A stretch of 28,009 bases of DNA from a virus: positions 1-28,009 of IMG/VR virus record IMGVR_UViG_3300042291_000849; one strand, 5' to 3'. The position numbers were made by a program, and so were the translations under genes. Below, piece by piece: positions 651 to 28,009 of this stretch. The notes below the pieces were generated by a model, which was not told the DNA's origin, did no database searches, and was given only the letters and a program-made list of their open reading frames with translations. Within the stretch, counting starts at the first letter, position 1; the number at the start of each line of letters is the position of its first letter.

Positions 651-678
651 AAGGGGCTCCGCAAGGGGCCCTTTTTTT
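651..678 (+). terminator. Rho-independent terminator after the capsid gene
   Basis: AAGGGGC at 651-657 can pair with GCCCTT (668-673) with one bulged G, and a run of seven T follows at 672-678. It lies 22 bases after the capsid stop codon and directly before the repeated TTGCCAAT element of the next gene, so the head and tail transcripts are probably separated or attenuated here. Confidence 0.82.
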
Positions 679-686
679 GTGCCTGT

Positions 687-712
687 TTGCCAATGGTCGC
701 AGGTTTAGAATG
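687..712 (+). promoter_or_regulatory. TTGCCAAT/GCAGG start-associated repeat, copy 1
   Basis: TTGCCAAT (687-694) is followed by CGCAGG (698-703) and the start codon ATG at 710, 23 bases after the first T. It matches copy 2 at 22 of 26 positions. The AGG lies six bases before the ATG and could act as a weak Shine-Dalgarno. Because it sits just after a terminator, this copy could also initiate transcription. Function is inferred from position only. Confidence 0.6.
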
Positions 713-2487: not shown

Positions 2488-2490
2488 GGG

Positions 2491-2516
2491 TTGCCAATTC
2501 TCGCAGGTTTAAGATG
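2491..2516 (+). promoter_or_regulatory. TTGCCAAT/GCAGG start-associated repeat, copy 2
   Basis: TTGCCAAT at 2491-2498, TCGCAGG at 2501-2507, ATG at 2514, spacing 23 bases. It begins four bases after the tail terminator stop codon and fills the whole gap before the tube gene. It is identical to copy 6 (inside the scaffold gene) at 25 of 26 positions. That makes these two the closest pair in the set. Confidence 0.6.
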
Positions 2517-2930: not shown

Positions 2931-3503
2931 GTGGACCGCCGCTTCCTAGATAGTCAAATCGACCCGGCGCCCCTCAAGTTCCTAGGGCGTACGCTCTACC
3001 CTTTCTGCCTCAAGTACCGGGTGCGTCTGATGGCCTTCGACTCCCCGCTGGTGACCGGCTCCCGCGGCGTGACGCCTGCCGACCTTATCTTCGCCTGCCA
3101 AGTATGCGCTGAAGAACCCCTGGGCGGGCTCAGCTGGGTCGACAAGCTGCGGATCGGGCGGATGAACGATAACCCCGCTAAGTTTGAACTGATGCTCAAG
3201 GCCTTCGCCGACTACATCCTGGTCAGCCACTGGCCGAAGTTCTGGGACCAGACCGATAAGAAGACCGGCGGGAGCAGTAAAGCACCATGGCCCCTGATGG
3301 TCGTCGCAAACCTAGTGGCAAATAACATCGAGGAAAAGCGCGCATGGGAGATGCCGGAGTGTCAGGCCATCTGGCTGAATGCCGCCTTTGCCATGCGCAA
3401 GGGCGTCGACGTGGCGATCATGTCGCCCGAGGAAGAGGCCTATATCGAGTCCGAACTAAAGCGGCAGGCCGAGTCCGCCGCCGTTGCCAATCCAGCAGGT
3501 TAA
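2931..3503 (+). CDS. Tail assembly chaperone, putative (GTG start)
   Basis: 190 residues read from a GTG at 2931; an in-frame TAA at 2919-2921 leaves no earlier start, and the first ATG (3030) would remove a segment (LGRTLYPFCLKYRVRL) that looks like a conserved N-terminus. The protein is soluble and helical with an acidic C-terminal tail (SPEEEAYIESELKRQAESAA). Its place immediately before the tape measure is that of lambda gpG, which keeps the tape measure soluble during tail assembly. I looked for a slippery heptamer that would give a gpGT-like frameshift product and found none convincing. The last codons double as repeat-element copy 3. Confidence 0.55.
   Translation: MDRRFLDSQIDPAPLKFLGRTLYPFCLKYRVRLMAFDSPLVTGSRGVTPADLIFACQVCAEEPLGGLSWVDKLRIGRMNDNPAKFELMLKAFADYILVSHWPKFWDQTDKKTGGSSKAPWPLMVVANLVANNIEEKRAWEMPECQAIWLNAAFAMRKGVDVAIMSPEEEAYIESELKRQAESAAVANPAG
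3484..3503 (+). promoter_or_regulatory. TTGCCAAT/GCAGG repeat, copy 3 (in the chaperone 3' end)
   Basis: TTGCCAAT at 3484-3491 and GCAGGTTAA at 3495-3503. It encodes the last residues VANPAG and the stop of the chaperone gene. The tape measure ATG (3516) lies 32 bases after the first T, with its own AAAGGAAA Shine-Dalgarno at 3502-3509, so this copy is more degenerate than the others. Confidence 0.4.
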
Positions 3504-6211: not shown

Positions 6212-6222
6212 CCCCCACCCCC

Positions 6223-6253
6223 TTGCCAATCCCCGCAGGATTAAGACCCGATG
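6223..6253 (+). promoter_or_regulatory. TTGCCAAT/GCAGG start-associated repeat, copy 4
   Basis: TTGCCAAT at 6223-6230, CCGCAGGATTAAGA at 6233-6246, ATG at 6251. Spacing to the start is 28 bases, five longer than in copies 1, 2 and 6. It occupies the 39-base gap between two tail genes. Confidence 0.55.
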
Positions 6254-11848: not shown

Positions 11849-12109
11849 ATGCCTAAAGAAGCAGACATCACCACGATCACCATCGCCGGACGCCCGATCA
11901 GGCTCAAGCGACCCATGCAGTCCTGGGCGGCAAGTAAACTGGAACAGACGTTCCCGCAGCTGAACGCCCTGAACGAAGCCGGCAAGACTCAGGGCGACGC
12001 CGCCGCCGCGCTGGGCGTATCGCTCAACTCCGTTCGCAACTGGGCCGCCAACACCGGCCTCGAGTGGAAGAACATCGACCGCCGCGGTCCTTACAAGCGC
12101 ATCAAGTAA
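11849..12109 (+). CDS. Helix-turn-helix protein, 86 residues
   Basis: The C-terminal half holds a helix-turn-helix: KTQGDAAAALGVSLNSVRNW at about residues 47-66, with the GVS turn and an N-rich recognition helix, followed by a basic tail RRGPYKRIK. The N-terminal part contains PIRLKRPMQSWAASKLEQTF. This could be a small transcriptional regulator (Cro-like in size) or a DNA-binding accessory factor. It is the best candidate for an early gene regulator. Its stop overlaps the next ATG (TAATG). Confidence 0.65.
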   Translation: MPKEADITTITIAGRPIRLKRPMQSWAASKLEQTFPQLNALNEAGKTQGDAAAALGVSLNSVRNWAANTGLEWKNIDRRGPYKRIK

Positions 12110-21729: not shown

Positions 21730-22293
21730 ATGACGCGTAAACCTAGCAACCTCGAGATCGGCACGGCGCTGAACATCACGCCGCAGCGCGTCTCCGTGCT
21801 CAAGCGCGAGGGCATGCCGACGGATACGGTCGAAGCCGCCCAGGCATGGCGAGCAGCTCGAGAGGTTGCCCGGTCAGCGAAGGCGCCGAAGGCCGCGCCG
21901 GCGAACCTCGACGACGGAACGCTGGCCGACACGATCAGCGAGCACCGCGCCTTAGTCGGTCGGGCTCGCGGCGTCTGGCTTGCATCGATGGAAGGCGGCG
22001 ACCCGAACCAGGGGAAGTATCAGACCGCGTACAACCAGAGCCTCAAGACTTTGGTCGCCCTCGAGGAAGAGCAGGAGCGACGACTCATCCTGGCTAAGGA
22101 CTACATCAGCTCGAAGGAAGCGACGGAGGCCATGCGTCAACTGATGGGCGAGGTCGTCAACCGTCTCGACAAGTTAGCGCTCGATGTCGCCGAGGCCTGC
22201 AACGGCGAGAACCCAGCCCGGGCCGTGAAGGCGCTCGAGCTCTGGGTACGCAGAACGAAGGCCGACCTATCCGCGAACGATGAACAAGGCTGA
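21730..22293 (+). CDS. Terminase small subunit (Nu1-like)
   Basis: 187 residues. The N-terminus has the winged helix-turn-helix of Nu1-type proteins: NLEIGTALNITPQRVSVLKR then EGMP and AAQAWRAAR, corresponding to Nu1's LADIFGAS...NWQEQGMP. The middle is a charged linker and the C-terminal 90 residues are helical, for oligomerisation and contact with the large subunit. It would recognise the packaging site on phage DNA. Start is the first ATG after the structured gap; the end overlaps the large subunit gene by 14 bases, typical for this pair. Confidence 0.78.
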   Translation: MTRKPSNLEIGTALNITPQRVSVLKREGMPTDTVEAAQAWRAAREVARSAKAPKAAPANLDDGTLADTISEHRALVGRARGVWLASMEGGDPNQGKYQTAYNQSLKTLVALEEEQERRLILAKDYISSKEATEAMRQLMGEVVNRLDKLALDVAEACNGENPARAVKALELWVRRTKADLSANDEQG

Positions 22294-24073
22294 CCTGCTC
22301 CGCGTAGGCCGTGACGTGCTCAAGCCGGCGGACTCTGGTGATGTGGTCCAATGGCTCGAAGACAACGTCCTCGCCATCCCTGACTCTCCGATGCCCGGGC
22401 CATTCAGGTCGGAGCGGACGCCGTGGATCGCCGAGGCCCTGCGCATTGCGGCAGATGCCGAGACGAAGATGCTCACCATCCTCGCCAGCATTCAGTCGGG
22501 CAAATCTCTCTTCGCCCGCCTGTTCACCTGCCACATCATCGCCAACGCTCCAGGGCCGACGGCTGTCTTTCAGTCCACCGATGCCGAGGCAAAAGACTTT
22601 GCACTGCGCTACATGCGCCCGGTCTGGAACAACTGCCCGCCCGTCAAGGCCCGCGTCTCGGTCGACGACATGGACCGCTCGACGACGACGGACTTCGACC
22701 GCATGACGCTTTATTGCCGAGGCCTGTGGAACGAAGCGAACCTTCAGCGCCTCTCGCTCCGTTATACCATCGCCGACGAATGCTGGCAGGCACCTCCCGG
22801 GCACCTAGCCGAATTAAGCGCTCGAGTGACTGCCTTCGGCTGGATGGGCAAGCGCATCTTCATGAGCCAGGGCGGACGGGCTGGTCAGGAATTCCATCAG
22901 CTGCACGAATCCACCGATCAGCGTGACTGGAACTTTCGATGCCCCGTTGAATCTTGTTCGCATCTTCAGCCCTACCTCTGGGAGCAGGTTCGCTTTCCAG
23001 AAGACGCGAAGCTGACGGGCTCATGGGATTTGCAGAAGGTCAGCGCTGGCACGACTTACGAGTGCGCCGGCTGCCAGACCCGCCTGCCCGATACCAACGC
23101 CACCCGCATGGAAGCAAACGCTCGCGGCTGCTTTGTGGCTACAGCCTCTTCCGCTAACTCCGGGCACATCGGCCTTCACTGGAACTCGCTCGCGTCTATG
23201 AGCTGGGGCGAGCTGGCCGTCATGATGATTAAGGGGAAGGAAGACTATGAGGTGTACGGCAGCGATGACGCTCGTCGCCAGTTCAAGCAGAAGAGGCTGG
23301 CACTTCCGTGGGCCGAAGAGGGCGGCGAGATCGTGAACATCGCTCAGGCCGCCAACTACAACATGGCCGACGACTGGGACGGCGAGTCAGTCATCACACC
23401 CAAGGGCCGAGTGGTCGACCGCGAGGGAGCGCCAGAAGGTTCGTTCCCTTTCCGCACCGCCGGCATCGACGTGCAACGTGGTCACCTATATTGCGTAGTC
23501 CGCCGCTGGAGTCGCACCGGGCACAGCCGCCTGAAGGCCTTCGCCAAGATTGACACCTGGCAGGACGTCGAGGCCTTCGTCAAACTCCACGCCGTGCATC
23601 CGGCCCTCGTTATGGTCGATGCCGGAGACCAAGCCCAAGACGTATATCGCCAGACCGCCATGCGTGGCTGGAAGTGCGCAAAGGGTTCGGGCAACGAAGA
23701 CTTCAGCGTCACGACCAAGGACGGCAAGACTACCCGCCGCTTTTATTCCGACAAGCAGACGATCATGGTGCCCGGTCTCCAGACCCGCGCCGTGCTCCTG
23801 GTCTGGTCGAATCTCGGGGGCAAGGATCTGATGCACGGGCTCCGCTCACGCCGCGCCTTTTCGTACGCCCTAGACGCTGGTCAGGACTACGTGGACCAGA
23901 TGAGCGCCGAGGTCCGCGTAAAGGACAGGCGCACGGGCAAGCCCCAGTGGCTGTTGCCCCAGGGCAAGAAGGACAATCACGCTTTCGACTGCGAGCTGCT
24001 CGGCCTACTGGCCGCCGTCCGCTGGGGCATCGTGGGCAAGGAAACGACCGAAACCGACTTGCCTTCCGCATGA
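22280..24073 (+). CDS. Terminase large subunit (GpA family)
   Basis: 597 residues. This is the packaging ATPase and nuclease that cuts concatemers and pumps DNA into the prohead. The ATPase loop is ILASIQSGKS at about 67-76, a variant Walker A as in lambda gpA. Walker B-like acid is in YTIADECWQAP (about 165-175). A zinc-finger-like CPVESCSH ... CAGCQTR insertion lies near residues 220-275. The C-terminal nuclease has AGIDVQRGHLYCVVRRW (about 394-410) and PALVMVDAGDQAQD, the Asp residues of an RNase H-like fold, and DNHAFDCELL near the end. Length is close to lambda gpA (641). GpA-family enzymes usually cut at cos sites. Confidence 0.9.
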   Translation: MNKADLLRVGRDVLKPADSGDVVQWLEDNVLAIPDSPMPGPFRSERTPWIAEALRIAADAETKMLTILASIQSGKSLFARLFTCHIIANAPGPTAVFQSTDAEAKDFALRYMRPVWNNCPPVKARVSVDDMDRSTTTDFDRMTLYCRGLWNEANLQRLSLRYTIADECWQAPPGHLAELSARVTAFGWMGKRIFMSQGGRAGQEFHQLHESTDQRDWNFRCPVESCSHLQPYLWEQVRFPEDAKLTGSWDLQKVSAGTTYECAGCQTRLPDTNATRMEANARGCFVATASSANSGHIGLHWNSLASMSWGELAVMMIKGKEDYEVYGSDDARRQFKQKRLALPWAEEGGEIVNIAQAANYNMADDWDGESVITPKGRVVDREGAPEGSFPFRTAGIDVQRGHLYCVVRRWSRTGHSRLKAFAKIDTWQDVEAFVKLHAVHPALVMVDAGDQAQDVYRQTAMRGWKCAKGSGNEDFSVTTKDGKTTRRFYSDKQTIMVPGLQTRAVLLVWSNLGGKDLMHGLRSRRAFSYALDAGQDYVDQMSAEVRVKDRRTGKPQWLLPQGKKDNHAFDCELLGLLAAVRWGIVGKETTETDLPSA

Positions 24074-24185
24074 ACTCGGGGACACTGAATTCAAGCGGCG
24101 GCGCCGATGGTTGCGGGAAGGAAGAGTCTCGTGGCGTGGACATGGGCGTCGCCGCCCCCTATCGTTGCCAATTCACGCAGGTCAA
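24074..24185. other. Short gap between terminase and gpW genes
   Basis: 112 bases with no preferred gene. An open frame from ATG at 24070 (ATGA overlap with the terminase stop) reads 62 codons to 24258 but runs out of frame through gpW. The gap ends in repeat-element copy 5. Confidence 0.5.
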
Positions 24186-24188
24186 ATG
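24165..24188 (+). promoter_or_regulatory. TTGCCAAT/GCAGG start-associated repeat, copy 5
   Basis: TTGCCAAT at 24165-24172, ACGCAGGTC at 24175-24183, ATG at 24186; spacing 21 bases. It lacks the TTTAAG part seen in copies 1, 2 and 6. It defines the start of the gpW-like gene. Confidence 0.55.
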
Positions 24189-24443
24189 GCTCAAGGGTAC
24201 TTTATTGGCCTCACTGAATGTGAGCTGCTCGACCTCAAGGCGAAAGCGCTGTCTCTGATCATGGACGGCAAAACGCTCATGTCCTACGCAGACTCCGGGT
24301 CTTCCGCGACCAAGGCTTTTCCAGGCATGACGCCGAAGGAGGTCTTGAACGAATCCATGTTCGCCCTGAGCCGCCTCGACCCGGGCAAGTACGGTCGCCG
24401 CGTGACCATGGTTAACACCCGATGGGACAACCGCATCGACTAA
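24186..24443 (+). CDS. gpW-like head-tail connector protein
   Basis: 85 residues starting MAQGYFIGLTECELLDLK. The ATG at 24186 fits the upstream element; one at 24111 would add 25 residues out of character. The layout matches the gpW family: an N-terminal helix (LLDLKAKALSLIMDGK), a short beta hairpin (TLMSYADSGSSATKAF), a second helix (PKEVLNESMFALSRL) and a basic tail. gpW (68 residues in lambda) joins the portal and acts as a stopper after packaging. Position between large terminase and portal is exactly that of lambda W. Confidence 0.75.
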   Translation: MAQGYFIGLTECELLDLKAKALSLIMDGKTLMSYADSGSSATKAFPGMTPKEVLNESMFALSRLDPGKYGRRVTMVNTRWDNRID

Positions 24444-24446
24444 TTT

Positions 24447-25958
24447 ATGCCCCCCCGCAAGAAAGTCCCGACTGTCAGCCTGCGCCCGAAGAAGGGCAAG
24501 CCGTCCACCCGCAAGGGTACGCCGGCGCCGCAGGCCGCAACTGTATCTCAGGGCCGTTTCAATAACCAGTACAGCGGGAACGAGTGGGGCTCGACCGTAC
24601 AGACCTACGCCCGCCGCGTCATCTACGCTCCGCAGCCGGATGACATGCGCCGCGACATGTCCCCATGGGACCGCAACGAGATGGTCAAGAAGTGTCGCTG
24701 GGCCGAACGCGAGTCCTCTCTCTTCCGCTCCATTCTGAATGACCTTGTCATCTACGTCTCGGGCGACGGCATCAAGCCGCAGTCCCACGCAAGCGACCCC
24801 GAGGTTGCCCGCCAGTACGAAGAATACTTCGCCCGCGAATCCAAGCGCATCGACGTCTCTGGCAAGTCCTTTGCCCAGTGCCAGTCAATCTTAGTCCGGG
24901 CTATGGTCCGTGACGGTGACGCCTTTGCCATCAAGGTCGTCAACGGTGACCGGGCACAGGTGCAGATCGTCGAGGCCCACCGTTGTGGCGACCCGACCGA
25001 CACTGATACCCCTTCGGATTGCTGGGACGGCATTGGCTTCGGTAAGTTTAACGAACCGATTTACTATTCTATCTATCAGGCTGACGGTTCCTCCCGCAAA
25101 GTCGAGGCTCAGTCTGTCATGCACATCGTCGACATGGAGACGGCATCGGGCTCCCGCGGCGTCCCTGTCCTTCAGTCTGCGCTCTGCGGAGTCCAGGACG
25201 TCAAAGAAATCCTCGACCTAGAACGCCGCGCAGTGAAGGACAACGGGGACGTGAATCGAGTTATTTTCAAGGGCTCAGGCTTCCTCGACGAAGATGCGGC
25301 CTCTGAGATTTCAAATAGCCGTGGCTCTGCCGAGAACGTCGCAAGCCAGATGGGCGGCAAGGCTATCGTACTCGAGAGTTCTGATCGCTTTGAAAGTTTT
25401 GAGTCAAAAAGACCGAACAGCACCTTCGTCGGATTCCTCGCGGCGCTGGAGAAAGACATTTGCTCCGTGCTCCCGTACGAATTCGTAAAAGACGTAACTT
25501 CGGCCGGCGGAGCTGGGGTTCGATTGGTGACCGCCAAGGCCGCACGGGTCTTCGGAAAATATCAGCAGGTCATTCTGACGACCTTCTGTCAGCCGACTTG
25601 GGAATACATTATCGCCGACGGCATCGCCAAGGGAGAAATCCCTGACGACCCTCGCTGGTGGTCTACCTCCTGGACCACCCCTAAGTCTGTCACCGTCGAC
25701 GCTGGCCGTGACGCGGCTAATGATCGCGCCGACATTGAGATGGGTCTCATGTCCGTCAGCGAGCTCTACGGTCAGAGGGGTCTCGATTTTTCCACTGAAA
25801 TGGAACTGCGAGCAAAAGACATGGCTTATATCCAGAACCTCTCGAAGACCTACGGCATTCCCTTCGAGCTGCTCTTCCGCCCGACCAACACTCCCCTCGG
25901 CACGGTCGCACAAGTCGACCAGGCTGAACCGCTCCCCGGAACCAACCTTAACAAATAA
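24447..25958 (+). CDS. Portal protein (lambda gpB family)
   Basis: 503 residues. The basic N-terminus (KKGKPSTRKGTPAPQ) leads to the conserved core with RRVIYAPQPDDMRRDM, KKCRWAERESSLFRSILND, and VSGDGIKPQ, typical of lambda-type portals. The stem/wing region contains YYSIYQADGSSRKVEAQSVM and HIVDMETASGSRGVPVL, where the family has DVxHxxxxxxPGQxRGVP. The protein forms the twelve-fold ring through which DNA enters and leaves. Length compares with 533 for lambda gpB. The start lies three bases after the gpW stop with ATG; a weak leader TTT precedes. Confidence 0.9.
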   Translation: MPPRKKVPTVSLRPKKGKPSTRKGTPAPQAATVSQGRFNNQYSGNEWGSTVQTYARRVIYAPQPDDMRRDMSPWDRNEMVKKCRWAERESSLFRSILNDLVIYVSGDGIKPQSHASDPEVARQYEEYFARESKRIDVSGKSFAQCQSILVRAMVRDGDAFAIKVVNGDRAQVQIVEAHRCGDPTDTDTPSDCWDGIGFGKFNEPIYYSIYQADGSSRKVEAQSVMHIVDMETASGSRGVPVLQSALCGVQDVKEILDLERRAVKDNGDVNRVIFKGSGFLDEDAASEISNSRGSAENVASQMGGKAIVLESSDRFESFESKRPNSTFVGFLAALEKDICSVLPYEFVKDVTSAGGAGVRLVTAKAARVFGKYQQVILTTFCQPTWEYIIADGIAKGEIPDDPRWWSTSWTTPKSVTVDAGRDAANDRADIEMGLMSVSELYGQRGLDFSTEMELRAKDMAYIQNLSKTYGIPFELLFRPTNTPLGTVAQVDQAEPLPGTNLNK

Positions 25959-25959
25959 T

Positions 25960-26754
25960 ATGTCCCGCTTTTTATCTCATGCAATCAAGGGCCGTGAGCC
26001 GATGCTTATCGACCCTGCCAAGGCTCAAGACTTCTGCGTCATGGCCGAGAAGTTTGGCTTCACTGACATGCTCGCCCAGTTCTTCGGCGTGGCCCCGGTG
26101 CCCTACGTCCAGAACGGCGTCGGCGTCATTCCGATTGCCGGCGTGATCGGCAAGAACCTAAGCCCCATCGAGAAGATGATGGGCGCCGTGGACGTGAACG
26201 ACATCTCCATGGCCGTCGACCTTTTCGCGGCTGACCCTGCGGTCGAGAAGATTGCCTTTAACATCTCATCCCCTGGTGGCACGGTCACCGGCGTCGAAGA
26301 ACTAGCGAACAAGATTCGCGACCTCGGCAAGCCGACCATGGCTTACACTGACTCCGAGATGGCTTCGGCTGCTTACTGGCTTGGCTCTCAGGCTGATCGC
26401 GTCGTGTCCTCAAGCTCTGCCACCGTCGGCAGCGTGGGCGTCTACATGGCCGTCCCTGACATGAGCAAACTCTACGAGGACTCTGGCGTCCGCATGGTCG
26501 TCATCAAGTCGTCTGGCTCCCCTCTCAAGGGCGCCGGCATCGAGGGCACGTCCCTCTCTGACGAGCAGGTCGCCGACCTACAGGCTGGCGTCGACTCGAT
26601 TCACGAAGACTTTAAGGCCGCCATCCGCTCCAAGCGTACACTCGTCGCAGACTCCGCCCTCCGTGGTCAGGTCTTCTCCGGCAAGCAGGCCGCCGCCCAG
26701 GGCTTGGTCACTGGTCTCGCCGACTCCTTCAACAAAGCCCTAGCCTCTTTCTGA
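25960..26754 (+). CDS. S49-family prohead protease
   Basis: 264 residues from the ATG at 25960, one base after the portal stop. The ClpP/SppA-like fold is clear: GVIPIAGVIGKN, FNISSPGGTVTGVEELA (oxyanion region, about 100-116), the nucleophile in DSEMASAAYWLGS (Ser136), VGSVGVYMAV, and a Lys about 54 residues later in IKSSGSPLKG, the general base. It corresponds to lambda gpC, which processes scaffold and portal during head maturation. Unlike lambda C it is not extended by a scaffold domain; the scaffold is the next gene. Confidence 0.88.
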   Translation: MSRFLSHAIKGREPMLIDPAKAQDFCVMAEKFGFTDMLAQFFGVAPVPYVQNGVGVIPIAGVIGKNLSPIEKMMGAVDVNDISMAVDLFAADPAVEKIAFNISSPGGTVTGVEELANKIRDLGKPTMAYTDSEMASAAYWLGSQADRVVSSSSATVGSVGVYMAVPDMSKLYEDSGVRMVVIKSSGSPLKGAGIEGTSLSDEQVADLQAGVDSIHEDFKAAIRSKRTLVADSALRGQVFSGKQAAAQGLVTGLADSFNKALASF

Positions 26755-26755
26755 C

Positions 26756-27619
26756 ATGCCCCGCATCTTCACCGACATCGACGACACCATCCTGAAGGAC
26801 GGCCAGCCTGTCGAGCGCGTCATCGACTACATCCACGCCCATGGCGAAGAGGTCGTCGTCCTGACGAACCGCTCTGAGTCCGAACGCGAGAAGACCGTGG
26901 CCGACCTCGATGCCATCGGCTTCGAGTACGACGCCCTGATCATGAATGACTCCGGCGCCGAAGCCCCTGCGTTCAAGGCTGGCGTGGTCAAGGCCGAGCT
27001 CGATGCCGGCCGCCCTGTCGACCTGTTCATCGACAACCGTCAGGACACCCGCGACGCTGTCTCTGCCCTGGGCGTGGAGGTCATGGACCCCGCTGCCATC
27101 CCTGAGATGGTCGAGGAAGATGACGTCGAAGAGGTTCCCGTGCAGGAATCTCCTGAGGGCACGGTTGCCAATTCTCGCAGGTCTAAGATGACCATCGAAG
27201 AGCAACTCGTCACGGCCGCCGCCTCTCTGGCCGGCCTTACTGCCGAACGCGACGACCTCCGCAGCACCGTGGAGAAGATGACCGTCGGCGCTTCTGCCGA
27301 ACTTGACGCCCTTCGCGTCGAGGCCTCGGTCAAGGAAGCAACCATCGCTTCCCTCACGGAAGCCCTCAAGGTTTGCGAAGCCGAACTTTCTACCTTTAAG
27401 GCCAAGGCCACTGAGCTCGAAGCCACCAAGGTGACCGCCTCCAAGGAAGCCGCCAAGATCGTGGCGTCCTTTGGCACCGAACCCGTCGAACTTCCGAAGG
27501 GCGACAGCCCCTCGAAGATGAGCAACGCCGACATCAAGTCCGCTTACCTCGCCCTCCCTGCCGGTCAGGCCCGCATCGCGTTCTTCAACGCGCATAAGGC
27601 CGCTCTCATTTCTTTCTAA
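26756..27619 (+). CDS. HAD-type phosphatase domain fused to capsid scaffold
   Basis: 287 residues. Residues 1-115 are a HAD-superfamily domain: TDIDDTIL (Asp7, Asp9, then Thr) near the start, VVVLTNRS for motif II, and VDLFIDNRQDTRD for motif IV; such domains dephosphorylate nucleotides, sugars or DNA 3' ends. An acidic linker (MVEEDDVEEVPVQESPEG) leads to repeat-element copy 6. The remaining 143 residues are a helical, coiled-coil scaffold-like domain with a C-terminal helix (MSNADIKSAYLALPAGQARI). The place directly before the capsid gene fits a scaffold. A phosphatase fused to a scaffold is unusual. The fusion could be cleaved by the S49 protease upstream. Confidence 0.75.
   Translation: MPRIFTDIDDTILKDGQPVERVIDYIHAHGEEVVVLTNRSESEREKTVADLDAIGFEYDALIMNDSGAEAPAFKAGVVKAELDAGRPVDLFIDNRQDTRDAVSALGVEVMDPAAIPEMVEEDDVEEVPVQESPEGTVANSRRSKMTIEEQLVTAAASLAGLTAERDDLRSTVEKMTVGASAELDALRVEASVKEATIASLTEALKVCEAELSTFKAKATELEATKVTASKEAAKIVASFGTEPVELPKGDSPSKMSNADIKSAYLALPAGQARIAFFNAHKAALISF
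27165..27190 (+). promoter_or_regulatory. TTGCCAAT/GCAGG repeat, copy 6, inside the fusion gene
   Basis: TTGCCAAT at 27165-27172, TCGCAGG at 27175-27181, ATG at 27188, spacing 23 bases. It differs from copy 2 at one of 26 positions. It is in frame with the surrounding gene and encodes VANSRRSKM, so the same bases serve as linker codons and as the presumed start signal. Confidence 0.6.
27188..27619 (+). CDS. Scaffold protein, predicted internal-start product
   Basis: 143 residues beginning MTIEEQLVTAAASLAG, in frame with the longer gene. The start is proposed because it is preceded by the same element that marks the starts of five other structural genes. The chain is helical with heptads (LTAERDDLRSTVEKM, IASLTEALKVCEAELST) and a C-terminal helix-turn-helix-like region that would contact capsid protein. 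A free scaffold alongside a minor fusion product copies the lambda logic in which Nu3 is made from within gene C. Its size matches Nu3 (about 130 residues). Expression is inferred, not shown. Confidence 0.6.
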   Translation: MTIEEQLVTAAASLAGLTAERDDLRSTVEKMTVGASAELDALRVEASVKEATIASLTEALKVCEAELSTFKAKATELEATKVTASKEAAKIVASFGTEPVELPKGDSPSKMSNADIKSAYLALPAGQARIAFFNAHKAALISF

Positions 27620-27642: not shown

Positions 27643-28009
27643 ATGGCTACCGTCCTCCCTACCGCACCCGCAATCCTGAGCGACTACATCGTTCAGACCG
27701 TTGCCGGCAAGCTGCCCATCCTCAACAACATCTCCGTCAATCTCTCGGCCTCCGTTGGCCGCGCTGGCAAGACTGTCTTCGTCCCGATCATGGGTTCGGG
27801 CACGGCCTCGGAATTCAATAAGGCCTCCAACACCCTCGCGGATGTTGACGGCGCCACGATGACCAACTCCTCGGTCACCCTGAAGCACTTCAAGTACGTC
27901 GACGAGTTCAGCCCCCTGGACATCCAGGAGTTCGGCATGCAGTACCTCATCAACGCTTACGCGAAGACCGCCGCTCAGGCCATCGTCGACAAGTGCTGGG
28001 AAGAAATCG
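27643..28009 (+). CDS. Major capsid protein, N-terminal part (continues at 1-629)
   Basis: The start is ATG at 27643 (MATVLPTAPAILSDY), 23 bases after the fusion gene's stop, with a C/T-rich leader lacking a Shine-Dalgarno. This part encodes residues 1-122 including the 117-base overlap, then continues in frame at the left end. The N-terminal residues (about 1-40) with ILSDYIVQTVAGKLPILNN could be an N-arm of an HK97-fold capsid protein; there is no separate delta domain, which fits use of a free scaffold. No decoration protein gene lies between scaffold and capsid, unlike lambda D. Confidence 0.88.
   Translation, partial: MATVLPTAPAILSDYIVQTVAGKLPILNNISVNLSASVGRAGKTVFVPIMGSGTASEFNKASNTLADVDGATMTNSSVTLKHFKYVDEFSPLDIQEFGMQYLINAYAKTAAQAIVDKCWEEI
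27893..28009. repeat. Terminal direct repeat, right copy (circular overlap)
   Basis: Identical to positions 1-117. See the left copy: the duplicated bases belong once in the circular genome, inside the capsid gene. Confidence 0.95.

Follow-up and report, generated by a model that had tools for sequence, protein, structure and literature searches.

Comparative analysis points to an independently initiated scaffold nested in a HAD phosphatase fusion gene of a probable Verrucomicrobiota phage

Does the gene that lies between the protease and MCP genes of this phage give rise to one protein or to two? The question is raised by a short sequence that recurs before late genes and is also found, in frame, inside a gene of 287 codons, where a first-pass annotation had read it as the start signal of a free scaffold. 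The window analysed here is the whole stretch of 28,009 nucleotides of IMG/VR record IMGVR_UViG_3300042291_000849. It carries an exact terminal direct repeat of 117 bp (1-117 identical to 27893-28009), and the genome is therefore a closed circle or terminally redundant. The late genes run in the order TerL, gpW-position gene, portal, S49 protease, HAD-scaffold and MCP:

22280-24073: TerL
24186-24443, plus strand: small gene at the gpW position, between TerL and portal
24447-25958: portal, lambda-type
25960-26754, plus strand: S49 (ClpP/SppA-like) head maturation protease, a gene of its own with an in-frame ATG at 25960 (Pfam Peptidase_S49, 8.4e-22; PHROG 53, 4.3e-52)
26756-27619, plus strand: HAD-scaffold fusion gene, 287 aa, beginning 1 nt after the protease stop (26754)
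27643-28009, plus strand: 5' part of the MCP gene, which crosses the junction to 629 (292 aa; PHROG major head protein)
651-680, plus strand: intrinsic terminator 3' of the MCP gene, about 6 nt upstream of the next element

The start of the fusion gene at 26756 is probably coupled translationally to the protease stop. The terminator is strong, is kept in relatives (GGGGCCC-TTTTTTT-GTGCC) and abuts an element copy at 686. The phage is probably of lake type. Its host is probably a member of the Verrucomicrobiota, since the closest cultured phage in portal comparisons is Verrucomicrobia phage P8625, with an Akkermansia phage among the next, and since contigs of Opitutae and Verrucomicrobiota MAGs carry relatives of the HAD-scaffold gene. 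Elsewhere in the window, positions 11849-12109 encode a protein of 86 aa that weakly matches HTH regulators and may be a candidate regulator of the phage.

Our structural predictions divide the 287-residue protein into two parts joined by a flexible stretch, and the boundary of the second part falls at the internal methionine, Met145, where the disordered linker gives way to a long helix:

26756-27109, plus strand: HAD phosphatase domain, residues 1-118, with a PNKP-like fold (Pfam, PHROG, AF2, Foldseek, invariant residues)
27110-27181, plus strand: acidic disordered linker, residues 119-142 (AF2 pLDDT below 50), whose 3' end carries the start element
27164-27187, plus strand: start-associated element GTTGCCAATTCTCGCAGGTCTAAG, 24 nt, directly 5' of ATG 27188 and read in frame as V-A-N-S-R-R-S-K
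27188-27619, plus strand: scaffold from the internal ATG, a predicted 143-aa product (invariant Met; standalone gene in contig L077 and others; AF2)

By fold and motifs, the N-terminal domain is a PNKP-like HAD phosphatase. It passes the Pfam cut-off for Hydrolase_6 (6.5e-07) and falls short of the gathering score for HAD_PNKP (14.8 bits versus 27.6), and it matches PHROG 415, polynucleotide kinase, at 2e-08. Its AF2 model (residues 1-118, pLDDT about 90) retrieves the phosphatase of T4 Pnkp in Foldseek (5uj0, 1.1e-04), together with 4xru and 2ia5 (E about 1e-4). The HAD motif set is complete (DxDxT, Thr motif II, Lys motif III and acidic motif IV), and the catalytic residues D7-I-D9-D-T11, T37, K74, K79 and D93 are invariant among 10 diverse relatives. 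The C-terminal part is modeled as a single long helix (147-238) followed by short C-terminal helices (257-285); it matched no scaffold family in Pfam or PHROG, where only PHROG 4780 and 530 appeared below threshold, and we assign it as a scaffold from synteny and predicted fold.

The element itself is not peculiar to this gene. Its core in the fusion, TTGCCAATTCTCGCAGG, occupies 27165-27181, in frame with the 287-codon gene and upstream of ATG 27188, and differs by a single nucleotide from the copy before ATG 2514, which bears out the first-pass description of a near-identical in-frame copy ending at ATG 27188. The core pattern TTGCCAAT-N3..4-GCAGG occurs six times in the window, 4-16 nt 5' of ATGs and on the plus strand only, none having been found on the minus strand. 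The copies other than that at 27164 are:

686-709, plus strand: element copy before ATG 710
2490-2513, plus strand: element copy before ATG 2514, with 1 mismatch to the 27164 copy
3483-3500, plus strand: variant element before ATG 3516, with a 5-nt instead of a 6-nt spacer
6222-6245, plus strand: element copy before ATG 6251
24164-24185, plus strand: element copy before ATG 24186, the gpW-position gene

All of them fall in the late structural region, mostly at late genes that are loosely spaced from the upstream stop (gaps of 112, 26, 12 and larger) or inside an open reading frame, and the genes of the window that begin 1-6 nt behind an upstream stop lack it. Exceptions are the MCP gene (gap 23) and the gene at 2931 (gap 33), which have no element despite their gaps. 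The earlier name of a structural-gene start element is thus apt in that the element marks late genes, but too broad, as the portal, protease, HAD and MCP starts are without it. The MCP starts at 27643 and at L077:5489 share instead a CTAACACAC-like leader immediately 5' of the ATG. At gene 3516 the 5-nt spacer recurs in clades A and B; the element there overlaps the end of the previous reading frame (AVANPAG, then stop), and AAAGG lies nearer to the ATG.

In 618 kb of related contigs we counted 225 forward matches to the element (up to 7 mismatches) and no reverse match, and shuffled or reversed control patterns gave 0-2 matches in the same sequence. The element is therefore far above chance expectation, and this strand asymmetry together with the shuffled-pattern counts rules out a chance motif.

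Is the element kept inside the fusion for the sake of the protein or of the nucleotides? Among distinct HAD-scaffold genes, whose products are 67-98% identical and whose kinship means that the counts overstate independence, Met145 is invariant (51/51), Val137 is spelt GTT in 50/50 as against 5.7% of the remaining Val codons of these genes, and Arg142 reads AGG in 43/43 as against 2 of 563 other Arg codons (0.4%). The Met also stands at the correct position in 283/283 loci of a redundant set gathered with the scaffold core, and not the Met, as the search key. Neighboring residues vary at 140 (S/F/L/Y), 141 (R/G/S), 143 (S/T/F/L) and 144 (K/S/N), and residue 141, whether Arg, Gly or Ser, is always spelt NGC. 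Because rare codons are fixed although the encoded residues vary, the comparison indicates that it is the nucleotides and not the protein that are conserved over the element, and conservation of the linker at the protein level can be discarded. This codon evidence outweighs a windowed scan for synonymous depletion, in which residues 137-143 scored 0.29 and windows 17-23 and 222-228 were equally low. In a related scaffold family, beginning MTIEEKL, the same letters (TTGCCCACCTCCGCAATCTTTAAG) are found in a different codon phase. By these criteria the scaffold is a unit in its own right, and within the fusion selection acts on the nucleotides of its start.

These observations bear on two readings in which the element has no role in expression today. 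According to the first, only one protein is translated, and the S49 protease cuts it in the linker to free the scaffold, the element being incidental. A disordered acidic linker is predicted at exactly this place and the adjoining gene encodes a head maturation protease, but the linker residues vary where nucleotides and rare codons do not, standalone relatives begin at the same Met, and in the MTIEEKL family these nucleotides are read in a different phase; we regard this reading as very unlikely. According to the second, the element is a fossil, a remnant of the 5' leader that the scaffold gene had when it was still separate, inherited since the fusion without a present function. Standalone relatives with a related leader would fit such a history, yet the retention of rare codons among proteins at 67-98% identity, and the in-step variation described below, call for ongoing selection, and we give a functionless relic almost no credence.

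The scaffold also occurs on its own. A search with the scaffold part alone returned 366 relatives, the best of which are mostly separate genes that follow the protease stop and open with the identical MTIEEQL (L077 and others), and no in-frame alternative start was found in these standalone genes. In other relatives the scaffold is fused in frame to a different domain, which we call domain X, or to X and HAD in one reading frame. Over all fetched loci, a redundant set, the upstream partner is HAD in 125, none in 79, X in 46 and X plus HAD in 31, and nearly all loci of these four architectures keep a version of the element together with the common scaffold and its start. A tree of 53 scaffolds implies about 14 changes of partner, a figure to be read with the tree's modest branch support; its starred branches require a minimum of 2-5 changes for each label. 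Given this range of partners and number of changes, the upstream position looks, on comparative grounds, like an exchangeable slot. Hence the suggestion that a nested strategy had been retained, with a new upstream domain, goes further than the comparison. The prediction of a free scaffold from ATG 27188 beside the fusion, on the other hand, is strongly supported by the comparison, through the standalone genes that begin at the same Met and the constraint on the element as nucleotides.

Domain X comprises about 111-120 residues, forms part of PHROG 2859, is unrelated to HAD and had no fold match in the PDB. Examples, with a triple fusion from a distant clade, are:

L120:715-1086: domain X
L026:4608-4940: domain X
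L338:2980-3330: domain X
L312:2737-3927: X-HAD-scaffold triple fusion, distant clade

Apart from its fusions to the scaffold and to HAD-scaffold, domain X is found at the C-terminus of a portal (L338) and in the protein annotated as prohead protease in Pontimonas phage phiPsal1, and by this distribution it is a head-associated module. The divergent X-HAD-scaffold fusions L312 and L314 have a Met at the junction, with AAGG about 8 nt upstream and no recognizable element. This corresponds in part to what the first-pass annotation had named as evidence against its reading, namely relatives in which the two domains form one unit without the element, but in a distant clade only.

With an upstream partner that is repeatedly swapped and an element that lies at module borders, it is conceivable that the element is a recombination site through which domains enter the slot, and not an expression signal; gene conversion would also explain why its copies change in step. 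However, the element is found on one strand only and goes with start codons, and it stands before four other late genes, beyond the swapped slot. We consider a recombination site improbable and return to a signal that acts at gene starts.

What reads this signal? The element differs by clade, and in the same manner, at five gene starts: the scaffold, the gpW-position gene, 710, 2514 and 3516. In clade A, TTGCCA is present at the scaffold in 22 of 23 contexts, the 23rd (L064) having TTGCCA with a changed right arm, and likewise at the gpW-position gene (21/21), 710 (15/16), 2514 (5/5) and 3516 (19/19), the right arm being mostly GCAGG. In clade B, TTGCCA is found at none of the five loci; most copies have TTCCA with GCAA or GCAT, as in the variant form TTCCAAT-N4-GCAA, and gene 710 has CTACCA or CTCCCA. 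Parallel change at independent sites suggests a co-evolving, trans-acting reader of the element, or gene conversion. One Verrucomicrobiota MAG contains a contig of such a phage, and across 57 genomes related to that MAG the motif is no more frequent than expected by chance, which rules out a host-wide motif; for the same reason either the reader is probably encoded by the phage or the signal is probably phage-specific.

Base pairing with 16S rRNA at its 3' end (helix 45 and anti-Shine-Dalgarno) exceeds shuffles for the window's clade A copies and a few clade B copies; as a common basis it fails in L021 and L054 and in the remaining copies of clades B and C. An RNA hairpin of the form TTGC(C)...(G)GCA is weak and is missing from the majority of the copies in clades B and C. 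No sigma-70 promoter was found at the element.

The element could nevertheless be a late promoter of another kind, producing a near-leaderless transcript from about ATG 27188 through MCP to the terminator at 651-680 and making the scaffold independent by transcription. The spacing from CCA to GCA is 6 in nearly all copies and the motif is confined to the phages, both of which would suit a promoter, and the terminator just 5' of the copy at 686 keeps this reading alive. On the other side, conservation stops 3-11 nt short of the ATG and does not extend upstream, so that a normal -35/-10 pair would not fit; the element tracks the start codons of genes uncoupled from an upstream stop; and among the genes scanned we recognized neither an RNA polymerase nor a sigma gene. 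The flexible spacing before the ATG and the absence of upstream conservation lead us to favor a signal for translation, and we think a promoter unlikely, if still worth serious consideration.

In conjunction, these analyses lead us to propose the following model, which we hold with good confidence as regards its central claim, namely that 26756-27619 yields two proteins, a HAD-scaffold fusion and, from ATG 27188, a free scaffold, in the manner of lambda C/Nu3 and with an exchangeable cargo partner. The full 287-residue fusion would begin at 26756 by coupling to the protease stop, and the free 143-residue scaffold would begin at the internal ATG, driven by a phage-specific element that is shared with other uncoupled late genes and would act in translation initiation instead of as a promoter. 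Because relatives swap or drop the upstream domain yet keep the start, a free and a cargo-bearing scaffold are probably both made. The free form, presumably in excess, would build the procapsid with the MCP encoded next, and the minor fusion would bring the HAD phosphatase into it through the common scaffold part, by analogy with the delivery of the protease in lambda and Mu, while the slot 5' of the scaffold start would take different domains in relatives. More speculatively, and with less than even confidence, we suggest that a co-evolving phage factor reads the start signal that nests the scaffold in interchangeable cargo genes, and that this arrangement is a general cargo-loading slot of the capsid, any domain being delivered on a minor fusion beside free scaffold.

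What is the relevance of such an arrangement? The nested protease-scaffold logic would here operate with exchangeable partners, a PNKP-like phosphatase, domain X or both, and thereby offers a natural experiment on scaffold cargo that suggests which enzymes phages want in the shell. Since the element varies in step at several gene starts, it points to a candidate phage factor for late-gene initiation, and it provides a concrete sequence with which such initiation can be tested.

Several known systems resemble parts of this locus. The N-terminal domain shares the phosphatase-domain fold and HAD motifs of T4 polynucleotide kinase/phosphatase, but it has no kinase domain and is fused to a coiled-coil scaffold. 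Phage P8625 has a protease with a C-terminus that is coiled-coil-like by inspection, directly 5' of the capsid gene, but neither HAD nor a separate scaffold gene; the profile similarity between our scaffold and that protease tail is not significant. A 127-aa gene between the protease and capsid genes of Akkermansia phage Moulinsart was set aside, its translation not being coiled-coil-like by inspection.

The start-associated element finds its closest parallel in the SAS and ESAS of cluster K mycobacteriophages, short asymmetric repeats in one orientation a few nucleotides 5' of start codons, mostly at genes set apart from their neighbor, the ESAS consensus being specific to subclusters (PMC3203893). 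Orientation, position and clade-specific consensus are alike. The sequences are unrelated, GGGATAGGAGCCC with a Shine-Dalgarno core there and TTGCCAAT-N4-GCAGG without an AGGAG core here; SAS and ESAS occupy the non-structural half of the genome and our element late structural genes, one copy lying inside a reading frame. A literature search for HAD together with scaffold in phages found nothing, and in the literature outside subscription journals we found no report of a HAD-scaffold fusion or of a start-associated repeat combined with a nested scaffold.

Nested protease-scaffold genes are textbook knowledge in lambda and Mu, where the fusion takes the protease into the procapsid. The overlap of lambda C and Nu3 was reportedly described by Shaw and Murialdo in 1980. 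In-frame internal scaffold starts lie within the protease genes of Mu and Mu-like phages (PMC4378225), and PMC8508860 cites Shaw and Murialdo 1980 for lambda. Our locus resembles lambda C/Nu3 and Mu I/Z in having a scaffold that occupies, in frame, the 3' end of a longer gene, with a predicted free product beside the fusion, and in its position between portal/protease and MCP. Unlike in those phages, the partner here is HAD, or X, or both, and the protease is a separate gene ending at 26754; the analogy drawn by the first-pass annotation therefore holds for how the locus may work, and not for a protease replaced by a phosphatase. The initiation signal also differs, a phage-specific 24-nt element taking the place of a plain Shine-Dalgarno sequence. 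With lambda C/Nu3 in particular, the locus appears to share an internal start that has its own initiation signal, here conserved among relatives.
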